Under the pieces are notes generated by a model. The model saw only the letters and a program-made list of their open reading frames with translations, was not told where the DNA came from and searched no databases. The position numbers and the translations under genes are program-made. Source: Cognaticolwellia beringensis (lineage in GTDB: Bacteria > Pseudomonadota > Gammaproteobacteria > Enterobacterales > Alteromonadaceae). From it: a DNA stretch of 64,000 nt. How positions within the stretch are numbered: the first letter of the stretch is position 1; the number at the start of each line of letters is the position of its first letter. The DNA lies in the NCBI RefSeq assembly GCF_002076895.1, contig NZ_CP020465.1:1178001-1242000 (forward strand), written 5' to 3'. Below are positions 47,196 through 58,411 of this stretch, piece after piece.

Positions 47196-49100
47196 GTGAC
47201 ACCTCAGTATTATAATGAAAATGCAGAAGAGCTTGCCAAACAATACCTTTCAAAGTCATTTGAAGAGGTTCATCAAAGTTGGTCGCAATTTCTGCCAGCC
47301 ATCATTGAAAACCCTAATGCACGTATTCTTGACTTAGGCGCTGGCGCAGGTCGCGATGCAAAGCATATAGCCGAACTAGCCGAAAAACAGCATAAAACCG
47401 ATAACAATATTCAAGTTTATGCGGTTGAACCCGCAACTGAGCTTGCCAATTTAGGCGCTGAAGTCACCAAAGACTTAAAAGTAAAATGGCTCAACGATGC
47501 TTTACCATCTTTAAGCGTTATCACTAAACAAGAAGTTAGTTTTGACTTAATCTTGTTAAGTGCAGTTTGGATGCATATTCCTCAAAGTGATCGCGCTCGC
47601 GCAATTCGTAAACTTGCCAATCTATTAAAACCCGGCGGTAAATTAGTTATATCACTTCGCCACGGCCAAACTGAAGAAGACTTTAAACAGCGTAAAATGC
47701 ATATCGTGTGCACTGATGAATTAAAGCAGTTAGCGACTGATGTTGGTCTATTTACCAAGTTAGAAACACAAAAAGAAGCAGACAAACTCGGAAGAAGCCA
47801 CGTTTCTTGGCAAACCCTTGTGTTGCAAATGCCAGACGATGGCACAGGTGCATTTCCATTTATTCGCCATGTTGCAATTAATGATGGTAAAGCAGCCACT
47901 CATAAACTGGCTTTGTTACGAGTATTACTAAGAATTGCCGATGGACACCCAGGTGCTGTTTTGCGAAGAGAGTCATCACCCTTTGGTGATCGCGTTATTT
48001 TACCTGCGGGTTTAGTCGCACTTTATTGGTGTCACCAATACAAAGACTTAATCGATACGCATCAGTTATTTCAATCACCTAATAAAAGTCCAAACATGGG
48101 TTTTATGAAGCCTAATGGTTGGCACAAGTTAACGCACCGTAGTGCTTCAGATTATCGCATCGGTAATTTATTCACCGGTGAAGATGCCATAGCACTTCAT
48201 AAAACCATTTCAGCGGCAGTCAGTAATATTAAAACCATGCCTTGTCGTTATATTACCTTTCCTAATCAAGAGGCTAATAGCAGTGCAAAGGTATTTGACG
48301 TTGCCAGTAAAACCGTTAAAGCCAAAGACAGTATCTTCCTAGATTTGCAAACGCTTGAGCAATGGGGCGAGTTCTCATTACCTGAATCAACATGGTTAGC
48401 GTTTAATCGTTATGCATGCTGGATTGAACCCGTACTGGTAAGTGAGTGGGTTAAAACCATGGCGAGTTATTCGGGCAACAGCCAATATTCATCGCCTGAA
48501 AAGCAGTTTCATTTATACCAAGCACTGAATTGGTTAGAGCCAAAACGAACAACAACCGAAGTACGAAATCGCTTTGAACAGCTTAAGCAACAGTTACCGA
48601 AAAGTGAGCAAATTCAGTGTGTGTGGTCAGCAAAGTCGTTACAACAAAAATACGATATTGATCACAGCATGCCATTTGCTCGTTGGCCAAATAACGATTT
48701 ATGGAATTTGTTGCCGACTGATAGCCAAATTAATAACCAAAAAAGTGACCGATTGCCGACAGAGCACAAGTTAAAAACAGCTAAAGCAAGAATTCAACAA
48801 TGGTGGCAAACTGCTTGGTTGAACGATGATATTAGCTCAGCTAGCGCAGAAGAAATAAATAATAAGCATGAAGTAAATGAAGCGCCAATAGGCTACTTGA
48901 TCAGCAATAAGCTTTTTACACCGCCAAAAACGCTAGAGCAAACATCAAGCGTCACAGCAGAAAGTAAGCGTTTTTTTGCTGAAGCGAATATTGCATTGCC
49001 AGGATTAAATTCAGATAACACTTCAATAGATGACTTGTTTGAAGCTCTGGTAATGCAACGCGGGCGATTGAAAGAAATGCAGCAATTGAGAGAGTGGTGA
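47196..49100 (+). CDS. Class I SAM methyltransferase fused to an HNH endonuclease domain
   Basis: Residues 1-210 form a Rossmann methyltransferase with the SAM-binding motif ILDLGAGAGRDAKHIAEL (about 43-60) and LILLSAVWMHIP; it lacks the DPPY/NPPF motif of DNA-adenine enzymes. Residues 225-320 may be a winged-helix-like region. Near 485-520 comes an HNH-type motif: YDIDHSMPFARWPNNDLWN, then LLP and NNQKSDRLP, with a preceding CVWSAKSL. This matches HNH nucleases of the IDH...NDLWNL...N.KSDRLP type. The GTG start has TAGGA upstream. It heads the defence island; its target is unknown. Confidence 0.78.
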   Translation: MTPQYYNENAEELAKQYLSKSFEEVHQSWSQFLPAIIENPNARILDLGAGAGRDAKHIAELAEKQHKTDNNIQVYAVEPATELANLGAEVTKDLKVKWLNDALPSLSVITKQEVSFDLILLSAVWMHIPQSDRARAIRKLANLLKPGGKLVISLRHGQTEEDFKQRKMHIVCTDELKQLATDVGLFTKLETQKEADKLGRSHVSWQTLVLQMPDDGTGAFPFIRHVAINDGKAATHKLALLRVLLRIADGHPGAVLRRESSPFGDRVILPAGLVALYWCHQYKDLIDTHQLFQSPNKSPNMGFMKPNGWHKLTHRSASDYRIGNLFTGEDAIALHKTISAAVSNIKTMPCRYITFPNQEANSSAKVFDVASKTVKAKDSIFLDLQTLEQWGEFSLPESTWLAFNRYACWIEPVLVSEWVKTMASYSGNSQYSSPEKQFHLYQALNWLEPKRTTTEVRNRFEQLKQQLPKSEQIQCVWSAKSLQQKYDIDHSMPFARWPNNDLWNLLPTDSQINNQKSDRLPTEHKLKTAKARIQQWWQTAWLNDDISSASAEEINNKHEVNEAPIGYLISNKLFTPPKTLEQTSSVTAESKRFFAEANIALPGLNSDNTSIDDLFEALVMQRGRLKEMQQLREW

Positions 49101-49165
49101 TTACTTAAATTAAACGGATAAGTTGATTACTTATTGGTATTGAATATTTTATAGAAGGAATTTTT

Positions 49166-49495
49166 ATGAAAACAGAAACTTTGGATGTAATTGTTAAAAT
49201 AGCGGCTTGTGTATGCGGTAAAGACGGCATTATTTCTCAAATGGAAGAAGAGAGTATTTACAACACAATCACTTCGAAAAGCTCAAACTATACACTGGAA
49301 TTTTTTAATAAGGCGATCGATGACTTTTTCGATGAAAACTTACAGCTTGAAGATTACTTAGAAAAGGTAAAAATTTTAGGTATACATGAGTTTGTAATTT
49401 ATTTGTGTGAGGTTAGTGCTAGTGCCGACGGTTTGGATATTAAAGAAAATATAGCACTCAATAAAGTTAAACTTATTTTAGGTGATAAATTATGA
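49166..49495 (+). CDS. TerB-like small protein at the head of the defence cassette
   Basis: A 109-residue acidic, all-helical protein. Two internal motifs, GKDGIISQMEEESI near the start and ASADGLDIKENIAL near the end, resemble the Asp-Gly-x-(I/L)...Glu pattern of TerB/DjlA-type domains, which bind metal and are linked to stress and phage-defence modules. The family call is from pattern only. The ATG has AAGGAA upstream, and the stop overlaps the ATPase start (ATGA), so it is translated with the cassette. Confidence 0.65.
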   Translation: MKTETLDVIVKIAACVCGKDGIISQMEEESIYNTITSKSSNYTLEFFNKAIDDFFDENLQLEDYLEKVKILGIHEFVIYLCEVSASADGLDIKENIALNKVKLILGDKL

Positions 49496-50862
49496 GTCGC
49501 TTTACTGATGCATCCCCAGATCCAAAATCCCATATAAAAACATTAATGAGAATTGGTTATACCATGCCTTCAGCTGTGTCAGATATTTTGGATAATTCTA
49601 TAACAGCCAATGCCAAAAATATTGAAATCCGGTCACTTCCTGGTTTAGAAGAACCCAATATTTCGATAGTTGATGATGGCGATGGGATGTCTCCTGACGA
49701 GCTTATTCATAATATGCGAATTGGCTGTAAGGACCCAAGTGACGAAAGATTAAGGGGGGATTTAGGGCGCTTTGGTTCAGGTTTAAAAACAGCCAGCTTT
49801 TCTCAAGCTAGAAGGTTGACAGTTATTTCTAAAAAAGTAGGCGGTCCGTTGTGTGCTGCCATTTGGGATATTGACCGTATTGAGAATGAAAATACTTGGT
49901 GTTTAGAGATACTTGAAGAAGATGAACTTAAATCGCATCCATTACTTTTACTTGATAGTCAATTGGGGCAGGGCACTCAAGTTATTTGGGAGAAACTGTC
50001 TTGCATTAATAAAACAAGTCATTCATTAGACAATGAAACAATTATGTCTGCTAATTTAAGTGATTTATCAGACTATATATCGCTGCACTTTCATAAGTTT
50101 ATGGAAGGGCAGAATAAACGGCGCTTCTCAATAAATGGAAGGAAGCTAGAACCAATTGATCCCTTTATGTCTCGCTCTCAAGGCTATCAAGAAGGTCGCT
50201 CTGAAAAATTAAGATGTAAAGGAGGGTACATTGAAATTAATACGCACGTATTACCGCATTTTAATCGAATGGAATCAAAGCCACTTGAGCGATTAGGTGG
50301 TGCTAACGGCATAGTACAAAATCAAGGTTTGTATATATATCGAGAAGGGAGATTGATAAATGCTGGAGGGTGGTTAGGTTTAGCAAAAACAAGTCAACTA
50401 GGTGCTTTAGCTAGAGTAGAGGTAAACGTACCTTCATCACTAGATCAGGATTGGTCTACAGATGTTAAAAAGGCAAGCTTACAGCTACCGCCAAGAATTA
50501 AAAAAGAACTTCGTAAGTTTTTATCAGATCCAATTAAAAGATCTAAACGTGTTTATAGGTACCGTGGTAAACAGGATGTAGCTAATAAGTATTGGAATAT
50601 TCAAGAAAATGAAAATGATAAAACGATCAGTTACCAAATATCTGCTGAAAACGATCCATTACTTGAAATATTTAGTGAGCTAACTAAAGAGAAAAAAAAC
50701 AAGTTAATTAAGTACCTAGGCCAGTTAGCTGAAAATTTACCTTTAAACCATATTTATCAAAAAATGTCTGAATCTCCGCGAGATATAGATCAAGAAAATA
50801 CAACAGATGCTTTATTGGAAGCGTTAATGAATAGGGTTTTTGAGGAAGAAATAAATGAATAG
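49492..50862 (+). CDS. GHKL (Hsp90/MutL/MORC-type) ATPase of the Z1 cassette
   Basis: The 456-residue protein carries the GHKL nucleotide-binding motifs: SDILDNSITANAKNIEI (N-box), DDGDGMSP (G1) and DLGRFGSGLKTASFSQA (G2), followed by an S5-like second domain. This ATPase group is related to MutL and to eukaryotic MORC proteins. It was described by Iyer, Abhiman and Aravind (2008) as part of predicted restriction systems beside Z1, REase-fold and AIPR proteins. It probably senses or clamps DNA through ATP-driven dimerisation. It overlaps both neighbours. Confidence 0.9.
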   Translation: MSRFTDASPDPKSHIKTLMRIGYTMPSAVSDILDNSITANAKNIEIRSLPGLEEPNISIVDDGDGMSPDELIHNMRIGCKDPSDERLRGDLGRFGSGLKTASFSQARRLTVISKKVGGPLCAAIWDIDRIENENTWCLEILEEDELKSHPLLLLDSQLGQGTQVIWEKLSCINKTSHSLDNETIMSANLSDLSDYISLHFHKFMEGQNKRRFSINGRKLEPIDPFMSRSQGYQEGRSEKLRCKGGYIEINTHVLPHFNRMESKPLERLGGANGIVQNQGLYIYREGRLINAGGWLGLAKTSQLGALARVEVNVPSSLDQDWSTDVKKASLQLPPRIKKELRKFLSDPIKRSKRVYRYRGKQDVANKYWNIQENENDKTISYQISAENDPLLEIFSELTKEKKNKLIKYLGQLAENLPLNHIYQKMSESPRDIDQENTTDALLEALMNRVFEEEINE

Positions 50863-53719
50863 TTCTTTTTTTAATAAATTAATATCACAAATAGCATCAA
50901 AACTAAAAATGATGGAAGAATTAGGTGTTTCAATTACCCCTAGTTTTATTGATGAAACTGTGAAAAAAGTAGTACAAGAGTTTAAACAGATACCTGACTT
51001 TCAATTTAGCGGAGAAGATTTCAAATTACTTAAATTTCAACTTGAGAGCATGTTTAACATAAAAATTGGTGAGCGAACTATCAAGATAGCTAACCCCGAC
51101 TTACCTCTATGGTTCAATAATAAAAAATCTCAAATAGATTGGGCACATTGGAATGCATATAAAGAAATGCTTATATCTCAAGCTAGAGCTATAGATGTCA
51201 TAAATGAAAATGAAAAAGTGATAGATTCAATTTTAGACTACTCTGGTGACCCTAAAACCCCAGGTACTTGGTCTAGAAAAGGGCTTGTTATGGGAAATGT
51301 TCAATCGGGTAAAACTCAAAATTATCTTGGATTAATTAATAAAGCTATCGATTGTGGATATAAAACCATAATTGTTTTAGGAGGTCACTTGAATGATCTA
51401 CGTAAACAAACCCAAGAAAGAATAGATGAAGGCGTTCTAGGCAAAGAATCAAAACATTTAATTTTAGAAAATAAAGCTACGGCAGCACCAATAGGCGTTG
51501 GCATTTTTAATCCTAATAAAATCCATACTGGCACATCAACAATGGGAGATTTTAATAAACCATCTGCTGATAACTTTGGCTTTAAGCTCAATGGTTCTGA
51601 TCCTGTTATTTTCACTATTAAAAAACATACAGGTGTTCTTGAAGGCTTATATAAATTCATTAAAGAAGAGCATTTTCTTAATCCTGAATCTGGTAAAAGA
51701 CTAGATGGGCCTTTGTTACTAATAGATGATGAAGCTGATTATGCTTCAATAAATACAAAGCATCATAAGGAAGAAGTAACTAAAACTAATGACTGTATAC
51801 GGAACTTATTAACTCTATTCAATAGAAATACTTATGTTGGTTATACAGCTACGCCTTTTGCTAATATTTTCATAGACCCCGATAGTAATTCTTATACGGA
51901 TGAAGATGACCTATTCCCGCGTGACTTTATGATAAAAATCCCAGTCCCTGATAATTATATGGGCCAGGATTTCTTTTTTGGGGATGGGACTCCACAAGAA
52001 TTAGAAAGTGAAGAGGTAACTAATGAAAAAGACATAATAACACCTGTAATACTTATAAGTGACCACCAGCCAATTTTTGAATTAAAAAAAATACAAAGCG
52101 TCCCTTTATTACCTGAAAGCTTAAAAGAAGCTATACGAGCTTTCATTATTGTAGTTGCTATAAGATGTATTAGAGGTGAAAACGCTGCACATAATACGAT
52201 GCTAGTAAATGTTTCTCATTTAAAAGATCATCAAAACCAATTAGAATTTTTTATCGAGGAATACCATAAAGAAATTAATCAAGCAATTATAGCTTATTCT
52301 GGTCTTGATATTGTAGCCGCAAGGTCGAGTAATAGGTTAGCTGAACTTGAATCAACGTTTAACAAAATTTTCAATGTTAAAGAAAACTATGAAAATGTAT
52401 TTAATCGACTATTAGAGGCTTCTGGTAAAATTGAAACATGGGCTATAAACCAAAGTAACAAAAAATCCGATAATAAAGATTTAGATTATTCTAAGCATAA
52501 AGAATATGGGCTTTCAGTAATAGTCATTGGGGGGCACAAGCTTTCTAGAGGGTTAACCTTAGAAGGTTTGTCAATTTCGTATTTTGCAAGAAATTCAAAG
52601 GCATATGATACATTAATGCAGATGTGTCGTTGGTTTGGTTATCGTCCTACTTACAAAGATCTATGTAAAGTTTATCTCCCTGAAGAATCTTATGATTGGT
52701 ATTCATTTATTTCTTCATCGATAAAAGAAATTTATCAAGAATTAGATTTGATGAGTAAAAGAGGTGATAGGCCAAGTGAGTTTGGTTTAAAAGTTAGAGA
52801 ACACCCCGGCGCTATGATAATCACAGCCAAAAATAAAATAGGGGCAGGTACGTCAGAAGTAATAAGACAAGATCTTTGGGGGCAAATTCAAAGACGTTTT
52901 AAGTTTAAGGAAAATAAGGATGTTAATATTAAGAACCTTGCTTACGCAGGGGCATTTATTCAAGCATTGACCGACGGCGGGAAAAAAGACAATACACTTT
53001 CAAATAAATATAAAGGAGGCCCTGTTGTTTTTTCTGATGTGAGTTATGAAGATATAATAGCTTTCGTTCAGAATATTGATTTACCTGAAGATGATATCGG
53101 AAATCGCGCTGTAATTTCGCACTTGAAAAGTATGAAAAACAAAGGACTAAAAACACCGAAGGTTGCCTTATTTAATCAGAGTAAAAGCCGTAATCCAAAG
53201 TGGGTTGATTTACTTGAAAGTAACGATGAGAAGTTCATAAATACGCCATACCCATTCGTTGGGGAAGATATCATATTACCAAAGCGAGCTATGAATTTTA
53301 AAGATGGAAATTATTATATCCCAAGTGTACAACTTGGTAATCCAGATGATGAGAAGATATTTTTAGAGAACCCTGAATTAGTTTCAAACTCAATGGATAC
53401 TAAACCTGTAAATTTTGATTACCTTTGCGCGGAAGAAAGAGACTTTCCAGGTTTAATTATTTATTTATTTGCTGTCGCTCATGTCACACCATTTCCTTAT
53501 AACAAAAAGCATAACCCTAACCCTAAGATTAAATTAGCTCATGGTAACAAAGCTACTTTGGGTTTTTCTTTATCGTTTCCTCGTATTGATAAATTGAAAG
53601 GGCTGACGAGTAAAGAAATCATCGAATTAAATAAAACAACAAAGCATGAATATAAAGTTAATAAGATTCAAAGTAAATTAAGAGAAATTGCAGATTATGA
53701 TGACTATGACGAAGAGTAA
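50855..53719 (+). CDS. Z1 domain protein with superfamily-II helicase-like ATPase
   Basis: The 954-residue protein has a Walker A GNVQSGKTQNYLGL (about 145-158), the Walker B-like LLIDDEADYASIN near 290, and TATPFANIF, an SF2-type motif III. Later, near 565-590, the conserved HKLSRGLTLEGLSISYF and MQMCRWFGYR complete the second RecA lobe. These define the Z1 family. It is expected to act as an ATP-driven DNA translocase or helicase in the cassette. It overlaps the ATPase gene by eight bases with GAGGAAG as ribosome site. Confidence 0.93.
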   Translation: MNSSFFNKLISQIASKLKMMEELGVSITPSFIDETVKKVVQEFKQIPDFQFSGEDFKLLKFQLESMFNIKIGERTIKIANPDLPLWFNNKKSQIDWAHWNAYKEMLISQARAIDVINENEKVIDSILDYSGDPKTPGTWSRKGLVMGNVQSGKTQNYLGLINKAIDCGYKTIIVLGGHLNDLRKQTQERIDEGVLGKESKHLILENKATAAPIGVGIFNPNKIHTGTSTMGDFNKPSADNFGFKLNGSDPVIFTIKKHTGVLEGLYKFIKEEHFLNPESGKRLDGPLLLIDDEADYASINTKHHKEEVTKTNDCIRNLLTLFNRNTYVGYTATPFANIFIDPDSNSYTDEDDLFPRDFMIKIPVPDNYMGQDFFFGDGTPQELESEEVTNEKDIITPVILISDHQPIFELKKIQSVPLLPESLKEAIRAFIIVVAIRCIRGENAAHNTMLVNVSHLKDHQNQLEFFIEEYHKEINQAIIAYSGLDIVAARSSNRLAELESTFNKIFNVKENYENVFNRLLEASGKIETWAINQSNKKSDNKDLDYSKHKEYGLSVIVIGGHKLSRGLTLEGLSISYFARNSKAYDTLMQMCRWFGYRPTYKDLCKVYLPEESYDWYSFISSSIKEIYQELDLMSKRGDRPSEFGLKVREHPGAMIITAKNKIGAGTSEVIRQDLWGQIQRRFKFKENKDVNIKNLAYAGAFIQALTDGGKKDNTLSNKYKGGPVVFSDVSYEDIIAFVQNIDLPEDDIGNRAVISHLKSMKNKGLKTPKVALFNQSKSRNPKWVDLLESNDEKFINTPYPFVGEDIILPKRAMNFKDGNYYIPSVQLGNPDDEKIFLENPELVSNSMDTKPVNFDYLCAEERDFPGLIIYLFAVAHVTPFPYNKKHNPNPKIKLAHGNKATLGFSLSFPRIDKLKGLTSKEIIELNKTTKHEYKVNKIQSKLREIADYDDYDEE

Positions 53720-54689
53720 TTATCAGAAGCTTTTTAATGATGATCCTTGGGAATCATTAGTTAATGCTTGTTATCCTAGCGGTAGGCGTTTGTATTTGAA
53801 TGATGAACGCTTTTGGGTTTCAATTGATGGCCTTGGGAAAGTAATGTTTTTTGTTCATGAAGTAGGTGAATTCAATATAATGGCTTTGGAAGGCTTAGCT
53901 GCTTTAGACATACAAGTAGATAATGACTTTATTGGAGCGACAAGACTCTGTTGTACTTTAACTGATTTGAATCTTGAATTAAGAACCAAGTTTTCTATAG
54001 TTGCAAAAGACATTGCTTACAATTGTAGTCAATTTTCAGGTCATGAATTACTAGATAGAGTACAAGCAAGAATTAAGTCTTGGGCTAATTTTTTAAAGCC
54101 TCAAAGAACTGGTTTATCTGAAGCTGAATATATTGGTTTATGGGGGGAATTATTTACTCTTTCAGAGGTTATTTTACCATATCATTCGCCTTTTGAATCA
54201 ATACGTTTTTGGGTAGGACCCGAAGGTAAAAAACAAGATTTCACTTTAAACAAAATTGCCGTTGAGGTTAAAACTAGTTTCTCAAGTGAAGCTAGAAAAA
54301 TAACAATTAGTTCATTAGAGCAACTAGATATAATAACTGAAAATTTGTACTTACTGCATATTGTAGCGAACCCCTCTGACTCAAAGTTTGGGTATTCACT
54401 AAAAGATTTATACGATAATTGTCTATCTATGATTAGCCAAGATCTTTCAACAGAAATTCTTTTTATACAAAAAGTTTTTGATCTATATGGCAAGGCAAGT
54501 GAAAAACAACTTAACAGCAAAAATACTTTAATTTCACAAACGCTTTATCAGATTAGCGACTCTTTTCCATGCTTAAGAAACTCGGATGTACCAAGTTCTA
54601 TTGCTGGTTTACGTTATGACTTGTTAGTTTCTGCGATTAAAGGATATGAAAGTAAAAAATCAATTGAAGAGGTAATTAAGAATGGATGA
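53697..54689 (+). CDS. PD-(D/E)XK motif nuclease (DUF4420)
   Basis: The protein (about 330 residues) has a restriction-endonuclease fold signature: an acidic helix in YIGLWGELFTLSEV, then KQDFTLNKIAVEVKTSF, which supplies the D...EXK metal ligands. It is the predicted DNA-cleaving subunit of the cassette. Three in-frame ATGs (53697, 53700, 53706) lie inside the end of the Z1 gene; I chose the first and the choice is uncertain. The overlap of about 20 bp implies translational coupling. Confidence 0.87.
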   Translation: MMTMTKSNYQKLFNDDPWESLVNACYPSGRRLYLNDERFWVSIDGLGKVMFFVHEVGEFNIMALEGLAALDIQVDNDFIGATRLCCTLTDLNLELRTKFSIVAKDIAYNCSQFSGHELLDRVQARIKSWANFLKPQRTGLSEAEYIGLWGELFTLSEVILPYHSPFESIRFWVGPEGKKQDFTLNKIAVEVKTSFSSEARKITISSLEQLDIITENLYLLHIVANPSDSKFGYSLKDLYDNCLSMISQDLSTEILFIQKVFDLYGKASEKQLNSKNTLISQTLYQISDSFPCLRNSDVPSSIAGLRYDLLVSAIKGYESKKSIEEVIKNG

Positions 54690-56799
54690 CCTTTTAGCAT
54701 ATAAAAATGAACTTTATAGTATTTCTAACATTGACGCAGACAAGAATGAGATTTTCCCTGAAGAAAGCTTTTTTGAACATGTAAGCGAACTTTTATCCGA
54801 AGCTGGTATTTTAGATGATGTTCAGTATTGTCCGTATCGCAATACCCATAAAGGTATGAAATTAGATGGCTATAGCTGGAATGCACTTGAGAAAACTATT
54901 TGTGGAATTGTTGTTAACTTTACAAATGAACCAGATTTTATTGATACCCTTACTAATACCAAAATTAAAGACATAAGCAAAAGGGTTACCAAATTTTTTG
55001 AAGGGAGTGTCGATCAAAACTTTATAAAAAACCTTGAAGTTACTGACCCTGGAAGAATGGCGGCAGATGAAATCAGTCATTATCTTGATGATGCTATAAA
55101 AATCAGAGTTGTTATATTCACAGATCAGCAATTAAGCACACGAGTAAAGAAACTAACCATCGGTGAAATATTAGAGAAAGATACTTCTATCGAAATCTGG
55201 GATATCGAAAGATTAAAAGATTTAACTCAGTCAGATGGTGATTCAGAAGAGTTTACTGTAGATATTAAAGAGTTAGGAGGTGAGCTCAAAGTTTTACCTG
55301 CTAATGATTTAGAGAATGGCGTAAGTACGTATTTAGGTATTATGCCAGCCACATTACTTAGTGATATATATGATGAATTTGGTCAACGTCTTCTAGAAAG
55401 CAATGTGAGAACTTTTTTAGATTTTAGAGCTGGGACTAATAAAGGAATGCGTAAATCGCTATTAACTGAACCAGAACGTTTCTTTGCTTATAATAATGGC
55501 TTAACGGTTACTGCGACAGCAATTAAAACAGAGTTGTTAAATGGTCAAACGTTAGTTACTGAACTGGAAAACATGCAAATTGTGAATGGTGGTCAAACAA
55601 CAGCTTCAATATATTTTTCACCTCGTGATAAGGGTAAATTAAAAGGAGAAGATAGAGAGTATTCCTATAGTGAAATTGACTTAACTAAAGTGTTTGTTCA
55701 GATGAAACTAACAGTTGTTGGAGAAAAAGAAACTGCTGATATTTTAAAAAGTAATATTGCCACTTTTGCTAACTCTCAAAATTCAATTCAGCAATCTGAT
55801 TTAGTTTCTAATCATCCATTCCATACAAATATTGAAACTCGTTCTAGGAAGCAATTAATGCCACCAGGCGAAACTGGCTTCCCTACTAAATGGTTTTATG
55901 AAAGAGCAAGAGGGCAATATTCAACACAATTAAGAGCAATGAGCACAAGTAGACAAAACAAATTCATTGCGGAATATCCCAAAAATCAGGTTTTTACAAA
56001 AACTGATATGGCCAAGTATGAAAATACTTGGAGAATGAAGCCACATGAAGTTAAAAAGGGGGCCCAAGCTAATTTAAAATTACTAGGGCAATCGATTCTT
56101 AAAGAATTTGAAAAAAATGAAGATGAGTTTGGAGCCGTATTTTTTAATGACCTAGTCGCTAAAATGATTTTATTTAGGGCTGCTGATTATGCTATACCCC
56201 GCTCTGATTGGTATAAAGCTGAAAAGGGATTAAAAGCTGAAGTAGTAACATATACATTAGGGCTGTTAAGGTTCTCCTTAAAAAAACACGGGAAAGATAT
56301 TAATTTAGAGCGTATATATAAGAAGCAATCAGTTTCTGACAGCTTTCTTGATTACATCGTACAGTTAGGTAAATTTGTTCGTAATAAAATAACAGACCCT
56401 TCATTTCGAGGTGGTATAGCTAATCCCTCAGAATTTTGTAAATCTGAAAAAGGTTGGCTTAAATTTCAAGAATTAGATATTGATATAAGTACTATTGATC
56501 CTAAAGACTTGTTAAATAACAAGCAGCAACTTGAAGTTAAAGTTAAGAAAAAAGAATTAAAACAGACCTCAAAAACAATAAGTGATTTAGAGTATGTTAT
56601 GAGTATTTCAGCTAAAGAATGGACTTTATTATCTGAATTTTATTCTGAAACGTATCCGCCATTTCATTTGAATGTAGAAATGCCATTAAAATATGTAAAT
56701 TTAATTAATTATGGGAAAGTACCGACAGATAAGCAATTAAAGTTGGCGGTCAAAATCAGGGAAGGTGCGTATGCTCAAGATTTTGATTTTGCAGGGTGA
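54682..56799 (+). CDS. AIPR family protein (abortive phage infection type)
   Basis: The 705-residue protein has the AIPR domain signatures FLDFRAGTNKGMRKSLLTEP, RFFAYNNGLTVTATAI, MQIVNGGQTTASIYF and NSQNSIQQSDL. AIPR proteins are linked to abortive infection and predicted restriction systems; their biochemistry is not settled. The N-terminal 230 residues are a separate alpha/beta region and the C-terminus holds a Lys-rich helical stretch. It overlaps the nuclease gene by eight bases and ends the cassette. Confidence 0.9.
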   Translation: MDDLLAYKNELYSISNIDADKNEIFPEESFFEHVSELLSEAGILDDVQYCPYRNTHKGMKLDGYSWNALEKTICGIVVNFTNEPDFIDTLTNTKIKDISKRVTKFFEGSVDQNFIKNLEVTDPGRMAADEISHYLDDAIKIRVVIFTDQQLSTRVKKLTIGEILEKDTSIEIWDIERLKDLTQSDGDSEEFTVDIKELGGELKVLPANDLENGVSTYLGIMPATLLSDIYDEFGQRLLESNVRTFLDFRAGTNKGMRKSLLTEPERFFAYNNGLTVTATAIKTELLNGQTLVTELENMQIVNGGQTTASIYFSPRDKGKLKGEDREYSYSEIDLTKVFVQMKLTVVGEKETADILKSNIATFANSQNSIQQSDLVSNHPFHTNIETRSRKQLMPPGETGFPTKWFYERARGQYSTQLRAMSTSRQNKFIAEYPKNQVFTKTDMAKYENTWRMKPHEVKKGAQANLKLLGQSILKEFEKNEDEFGAVFFNDLVAKMILFRAADYAIPRSDWYKAEKGLKAEVVTYTLGLLRFSLKKHGKDINLERIYKKQSVSDSFLDYIVQLGKFVRNKITDPSFRGGIANPSEFCKSEKGWLKFQELDIDISTIDPKDLLNNKQQLEVKVKKKELKQTSKTISDLEYVMSISAKEWTLLSEFYSETYPPFHLNVEMPLKYVNLINYGKVPTDKQLKLAVKIREGAYAQDFDFAG

Positions 56800-56818
56800 T
56801 TTCAAACTTTATTAATAT

Positions 56819-56845
56819 AAAGGAGAGCATACTAAGCTCTCCTTT
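56819..56845. terminator. Bidirectional terminator between AIPR and cytosine methyltransferase
   Basis: Arms AAAGGAGAGC and GCTCTCCTTT form a 10-bp stem with a 7-nt loop in the 49-bp gap between convergent genes. Its position serves both transcripts. Confidence 0.85.
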
Positions 56846-56848
56846 ACT

Positions 56849-58411
56849 TTAGCTTAGTATATTTGAAACGACCTTAGCTATTTTATTTGCTAGTAATGGT
56901 GGTACTGCATTTCCAACTTGTACATATTGTTCTGTGCGATTACCAACAAAAAAATAATTGTCTGGGAATGTTTGAATTCTTGCCGCTTCTCTTACTGTCA
57001 TGCTTCTACATTGCAGGTAGTCTGGATGAATGTAGGAATGACCATCTTTAGATATATGACAGGTAATAGTGGTAGCAGGCAGATCCCAAGGTTGGACTCT
57101 AAACCTGTCGGCGAATTTTCCGCTGTCAAAGTTTTTATGTTTTGGATATAGATATTTTGGATAATCTTTCGATTTTGGGCTGCGAGGGGTCCAATTCAAT
57201 CGTTTGCTTACGGTACCCCAAACACTACAAAATAAATAGCGTTGTAAGTCAGCAGTTAGGTGGCCTCTAGTCTCATGGTTAGTGATATATTGGCCTAGTT
57301 TTTTATCATAAAACCAGTCACTTAATTCTTTGCTTTTGATACTTGATGTGCGCTTTAAAGAAAATACTTGTCCTTGTTTTTCAGTAGGGGCTTTAATAGA
57401 TTTATATATCAATTCTATTTCATCTGCTATTTCAGGTAGTTTGTTCTCCTTTAATGACTTTATGGTTTTCTTTACATCCTTTTGAATATTATATACCCAA
57501 TTGTTATCTGTGTTTTCTAGTTTAGATAGTCCACTTCTCAATGCTGGCAAATCAGCTAGAACTTCTTCTATTGAAGTTTGAGTACTAACTTTTTCAAGGC
57601 AAACATCTTTGATATTTGGATATATATCTTGCCTTATACCTAATAAAATAACCCTGTGCCTTCTTTGAGGTATACCGTGATTTTCGCTATAAACAATATA
57701 ATCTTTCGGTTGAACATCCTTCTTGTTAGATTCAGGTACAGTTAAAGATAAAATCTTATAGTTATGTCTTATACGGTTTTTTTGAGGTTTTGTTTTTACT
57801 GATTTACAAGGGTTATGTAAATCAGTAAAAATAGTATCATAAATGGATTTGCCATTTATTTTAGTTGAAAGCATACCCTTAACATTTTCCATCACAAAAA
57901 CAGTCGGTTGGAACTGTGCGATGATTTTTAAATACTCTTTATAAAGAAAGTTTCTAGGATCGGCAGTTGGGTCGTAATCTTTCTTATTTTTCTTGCCTGC
58001 ATTTGAATATGCTTGGCAAGGCGGACCACCTATTAAAATACATTCATCTTCACCGATAACTTCTAATATTTTTTTATTTATCAGATCATTATCTTTACCA
58101 AGCTCTAAATTTTGAGCTTCGAGTTCCGCTGCGGCTACTTGAGCCATATATTTTGGTATTTTATAAAGTTGTTCTTCGGGGGTTTTCCCTAATTTCCCTT
58201 TTAAAAAATCGTAATACTCTTCTGGGACACTTCCTTTAAACTGGCGAAAAAAAGCTCTTAATTTAAGTGTACGATGAGCACTTTTTTCTTTTTCAATTGA
58301 AATAGCTATTTTGAAAGGGGAGTTACCATCATCATCTTTTAATGCTGCAAAGCCTTCTCCGAGGCCACCGGGGCCTGAAAATAAGTCGATTATTTTAATT
58401 GGTTTATTCAT
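56849..58411 (-). CDS. DNA (cytosine-5) methyltransferase
   Basis: The 520-residue enzyme has the C5 methyltransferase motifs in order: IDLFSGPGGLGEGF (motif I), GGPPCQAYSNAG with the catalytic Cys (IV), FVMENVKGML (VI), GIPQRRHRVILLG (VIII), and VQVGNAVPPLLA (X). The target-recognition region lies between motifs VIII and IX and is large enough for an unusual specificity, which cannot be read from sequence. It faces the Z1/AIPR cassette and probably protects host DNA from its nuclease. It runs on its own promoter. Confidence 0.95.
   Translation of the reverse strand: MNKPIKIIDLFSGPGGLGEGFAALKDDDGNSPFKIAISIEKEKSAHRTLKLRAFFRQFKGSVPEEYYDFLKGKLGKTPEEQLYKIPKYMAQVAAAELEAQNLELGKDNDLINKKILEVIGEDECILIGGPPCQAYSNAGKKNKKDYDPTADPRNFLYKEYLKIIAQFQPTVFVMENVKGMLSTKINGKSIYDTIFTDLHNPCKSVKTKPQKNRIRHNYKILSLTVPESNKKDVQPKDYIVYSENHGIPQRRHRVILLGIRQDIYPNIKDVCLEKVSTQTSIEEVLADLPALRSGLSKLENTDNNWVYNIQKDVKKTIKSLKENKLPEIADEIELIYKSIKAPTEKQGQVFSLKRTSSIKSKELSDWFYDKKLGQYITNHETRGHLTADLQRYLFCSVWGTVSKRLNWTPRSPKSKDYPKYLYPKHKNFDSGKFADRFRVQPWDLPATTITCHISKDGHSYIHPDYLQCRSMTVREAARIQTFPDNYFFVGNRTEQYVQVGNAVPPLLANKIAKVVSNILS

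Follow-up and report, generated by a model that had tools for sequence, protein, structure and literature searches.

A predicted Mza-like defence cassette with a TerB-like sixth component at a defence hotspot of Cognaticolwellia beringensis

In a 64,000-nucleotide stretch of the Cognaticolwellia beringensis chromosome (NZ_CP020465.1, positions 1,178,001 to 1,242,000; hereafter the window), a cassette had been predicted to encode five defence components: a MORC-like GHKL ATPase, a Z1 motor, a restriction-endonuclease-fold nuclease, an AIPR protein and a C5 cytosine DNA methyltransferase. Judged from its sequence, the cassette is real and intact; it belongs to a kind of defence set already known, to which its clade adds one part. 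The observation was confirmed, and its interpretation was supported in part. All five named components were present; a sixth, a small TerB-like protein, is also encoded there (Table 1).

Table 1. Features of the cassette and its flank (window coordinates)
Feature	Position	Strand	Details
Methyltransferase-HNH fusion, hotspot anchor outside cassette	47196..49100	+	
Cassette segment	49113..58560	.	left border from DNA similarity to nine other genus genomes, right border from one; GC 33.3%
TerB-like six-helix protein, sixth component	49166..49495	+	109 amino acids
MORC-family GHKL ATPase (MzaB-like)	49492..50862	+	PF13589 7e-32; NCBIfam MzaB 244.9 bits, cut-off 850
PF10593/MzaC-matching protein	50855..53719	+	PF10593 2.6e-73; MzaC 446.3 bits, cut-off 1500
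DUF4420 PD-(D/E)XK nuclease (MzaD-like)	53697..54689	+	PF14390 4.5e-47; MzaD 94.2 bits, cut-off 420
AIPR protein (MzaE-like)	54682..56799	+	restriction-endonuclease-like N domain without ExK, then highly conserved core; MzaE 293 bits, cut-off 1050
Hairpin between two converging genes	56818..56846	.	11 pairs, 7-base loop, weak T tail
C5 cytosine DNA methyltransferase	56849..58411	-	

Core genes and the TerB-like component

Pfam searches bore out the families proposed for the ATPase, the motor and the nuclease (Table 1), and the motifs said to be intact were found so in both enzymes inspected by alignment. Residues N35, D61, G63, G65, G97 and K99 of the ATPase were kept in 73/74 aligned rows, and the E-D-ExK motif of the nuclease (E154-D184-E193xK195, numbered from the TTG at 53688) was kept in 52 to 53 of 53. 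The prokaryotic MORC S5-domain motif GhXhhpXXRhl was present in the ATPase as GLYIYREGRLI, with G279, Y281, Y283, R284 and R287 kept in all 74 rows and L288 in 73, and the PF10593 protein carries the motifs GNVQSGKT, DDEAD, TATPFAN and DTLMQMCRWFG. The cassette is probably active in defence; that it is a decaying or housekeeping DNA-processing operon with no working defence seems very unlikely.

The TerB profile (PF05099) gave no match up to E 1 in the small protein of this cassette, and 17 of 58 aligned family members matched it (best 6.8e-5). We found no description of a TerB-like subunit in such systems in the literature searched, and the gene is a sequence marker of a clade within a known kind of system. 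That a TerB-like protein can belong to an anti-phage set is known from Shango, which was tested against phage and, as described in the relevant part of PMC10250203, likewise joins an ATPase and a helicase to such a protein; Shango, however, has three genes, and the likeness is one of description alone. Related TerB-bearing cassettes from Motilimonas, Pseudoalteromonas and a cut-off one from Shewanella (L192, L099 and L045) adjoin yicC-like and rph-pyrE-like genes, neighbours that were recognised by eye; with L043 included, this placement holds for relatives in three other genera (L043/L192, L045 and L099). A second, more distant TerB-like gene was seen at L046:10553-10948, where it adjoins the methyltransferase, and at L044:547-945.

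Comparison with known systems

Work by Gao et al. in 2020 reportedly defined the Mza system as mzaABCDE. By best-match names, the window genes follow the order B-C-D-E on a single strand, but all four scores missed the NCBIfam equivalog cut-offs, reaching 22 to 30% of them. The MzaA profile (NF041931) matched at five places in the genome; every match fell below the cut-off, and all lay more than 90 kb from the cassette. They appear to be ordinary sigma factors, since 10 of 14 well-known control genomes matched too, likewise without passing the cut-off. Strict identity with Mza was rejected both on the equivalog cut-offs and on MzaA. Two further differences from Mza are the C5 methyltransferase and the TerB-like protein of the locus.

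The cassette fits the parts list of the putative 'Type II' defence system of Miller et al. 2022 (PMC9523054), for which the corresponding text section mentions a putative transcriptional regulator and does not name a TerB-like subunit. It also fits the third operon type of Iyer et al. 2008, except at one motif position. The section on that operon type (PMC2292703) shares with the window a MORC motif, a superfamily II helicase with a DThhQXuRhFG-like motif (u = G/A/S), a restriction-endonuclease-fold nuclease with E-D-ExK and a cytosine methylase, with AIPR in the figure legend; it does not name a TerB-like gene. Every position of the window motif DTLMQMCRWFG fits except the tiny one, which is Cys here and Gly in the other five of six aligned rows. 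CglI and NgoAVII, in the portion of PMC4267653 that describes them, have three genes with a PLD-B3 nuclease and no MORC, DUF4420, AIPR or TerB-like parts, and the cassette proteins gave no PLD or B3 match up to E 0.1.

The methyltransferase and the mode of recognition

The hairpin between the converging AIPR and methyltransferase genes is likely a terminator common to both, as originally predicted. We surveyed the neighbourhoods of 91 related loci. After 21 had been set aside because their flanks were short, 70 were left, of which seven were without a core gene (L018, L020-L024 and L120). A C5 methyltransferase lay within 8 kb in 62 of the 63 complete loci. Such a partner would mark host DNA, and no modification-reading domain was among the family matches of the core proteins; both points count against a type IV-like system dependent on modification, in which phage DNA bearing modifications is attacked and the methyltransferase is unrelated or avoids the target, a reading that we consider improbable.

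The methyltransferase of the window is 62% identical to that of L019, in the same convergent layout, whereas the neighbouring cores are only about 33% identical, a disparity that suggests exchange of the methyltransferase. Such differing histories would also suit an Mza-like defence in which phage replication or DNA structure is sensed instead of sequence, with AIPR or the nuclease as abortive effector and the methyltransferase protecting the host or being a loose passenger. This alternative is possible, if doubtful. DNA structure is a conceivable target of the MORC and motor proteins, Pfam annotates AIPR as an abortive infection protein, TerB-bearing L044 has no methyltransferase in its available stretch of DNA, and the account of validated Mza in PMC9523054 describes a sigma-factor MzaA and, in that part, does not name a methyltransferase. 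However, the methyltransferase is too constant among the complete loci for a passenger, and a nuclease effector in AIPR is unlikely because its N domain has no conserved ExK. Fold prediction for AIPR gave a restriction-endonuclease-like N domain, and the core that follows may weakly resemble ParB/DUF262.

A horizontally gained module in a defence hotspot

The neighbours of the cassette are the methyltransferase-HNH gene and, named by eye, a PhnD-like gene. Its guanine-plus-cytosine (GC) content of 33.3% is below that of every one of 80 overlapping, equally long segments elsewhere in the window (37.7 to 40.2%). The methyltransferase-HNH gene was found in 10 of 17 genus genomes, including this one, and all nine others lose DNA similarity at 49098-49112; the right border, 58561, is based on the single genome G008, similarity in G014 returning only from 59774. 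Beyond the 3' end of the fusion gene, contents vary among the nine, as seen at genus loci L123, L125, L128 and L147-L153. Given the low GC and these differing contents beside a shared flanking gene, the cassette is most likely a horizontally gained module in a defence hotspot, which the fusion gene marks. Between the two border regions there is a direct match of just 9 bases and no inverted match, and no integration scar is claimed. The HNH part of the fusion weakly resembles Cas9 (PADLOC 6e-5).

A PLD-helicase-DUF3427 enzyme, recognised through a common N-terminal stretch, is convergent to the fusion gene in six of the nine genomes (G003, G004, G005, G008, G011 and G012); this genome gave no match to it at E 1e-50. 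The G005 copy matched PADLOC mREase_IV (9e-212) and Pfam ResIII, PLDc_2 and DUF3427. By locus, this type IV-like enzyme is the gene at L147:4218-7433, and its counterparts are in L123, L148, L128, L152 and L153. In G005 and G008 it comes straight after the fusion gene; in the other four, the intervening genes are a recombinase and AriA/AriB-like genes in G003, HicB and HicA-like genes in G004 (HicA slightly below the Pfam cut-off), a dGTPase and a TIR effector in G011, and MBL, E1-E2 and JAB genes in G012. Of the remaining genomes, G002 carries Cas3e (9e-159) and further genes that look cas-like by eye, G013 carries unclassified genes, of which the single one scanned gave no PADLOC match, and G014 has no cargo.

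A speculative mechanism and its implications

In a more speculative reading, to which we give a probability of roughly one in five, the TerB-like protein would be indispensable as a sixth subunit, gating the MORC clamp of a machine that itself recognises no fixed sequence. Self would be defined by the exchangeable C5 methyltransferase, and AIPR, combining a dead-nuclease fold with a ParB/DUF262-like nucleoside triphosphate switch, would license cutting by DUF4420. In types I to III, the recognition part is common to, or matched between, cutting and marking. The predicted AIPR fold may offer a lead for the AIPR family as a whole. If the TerB gating and methyltransferase-defined self hold, the restriction logic would be unlike that of those types.
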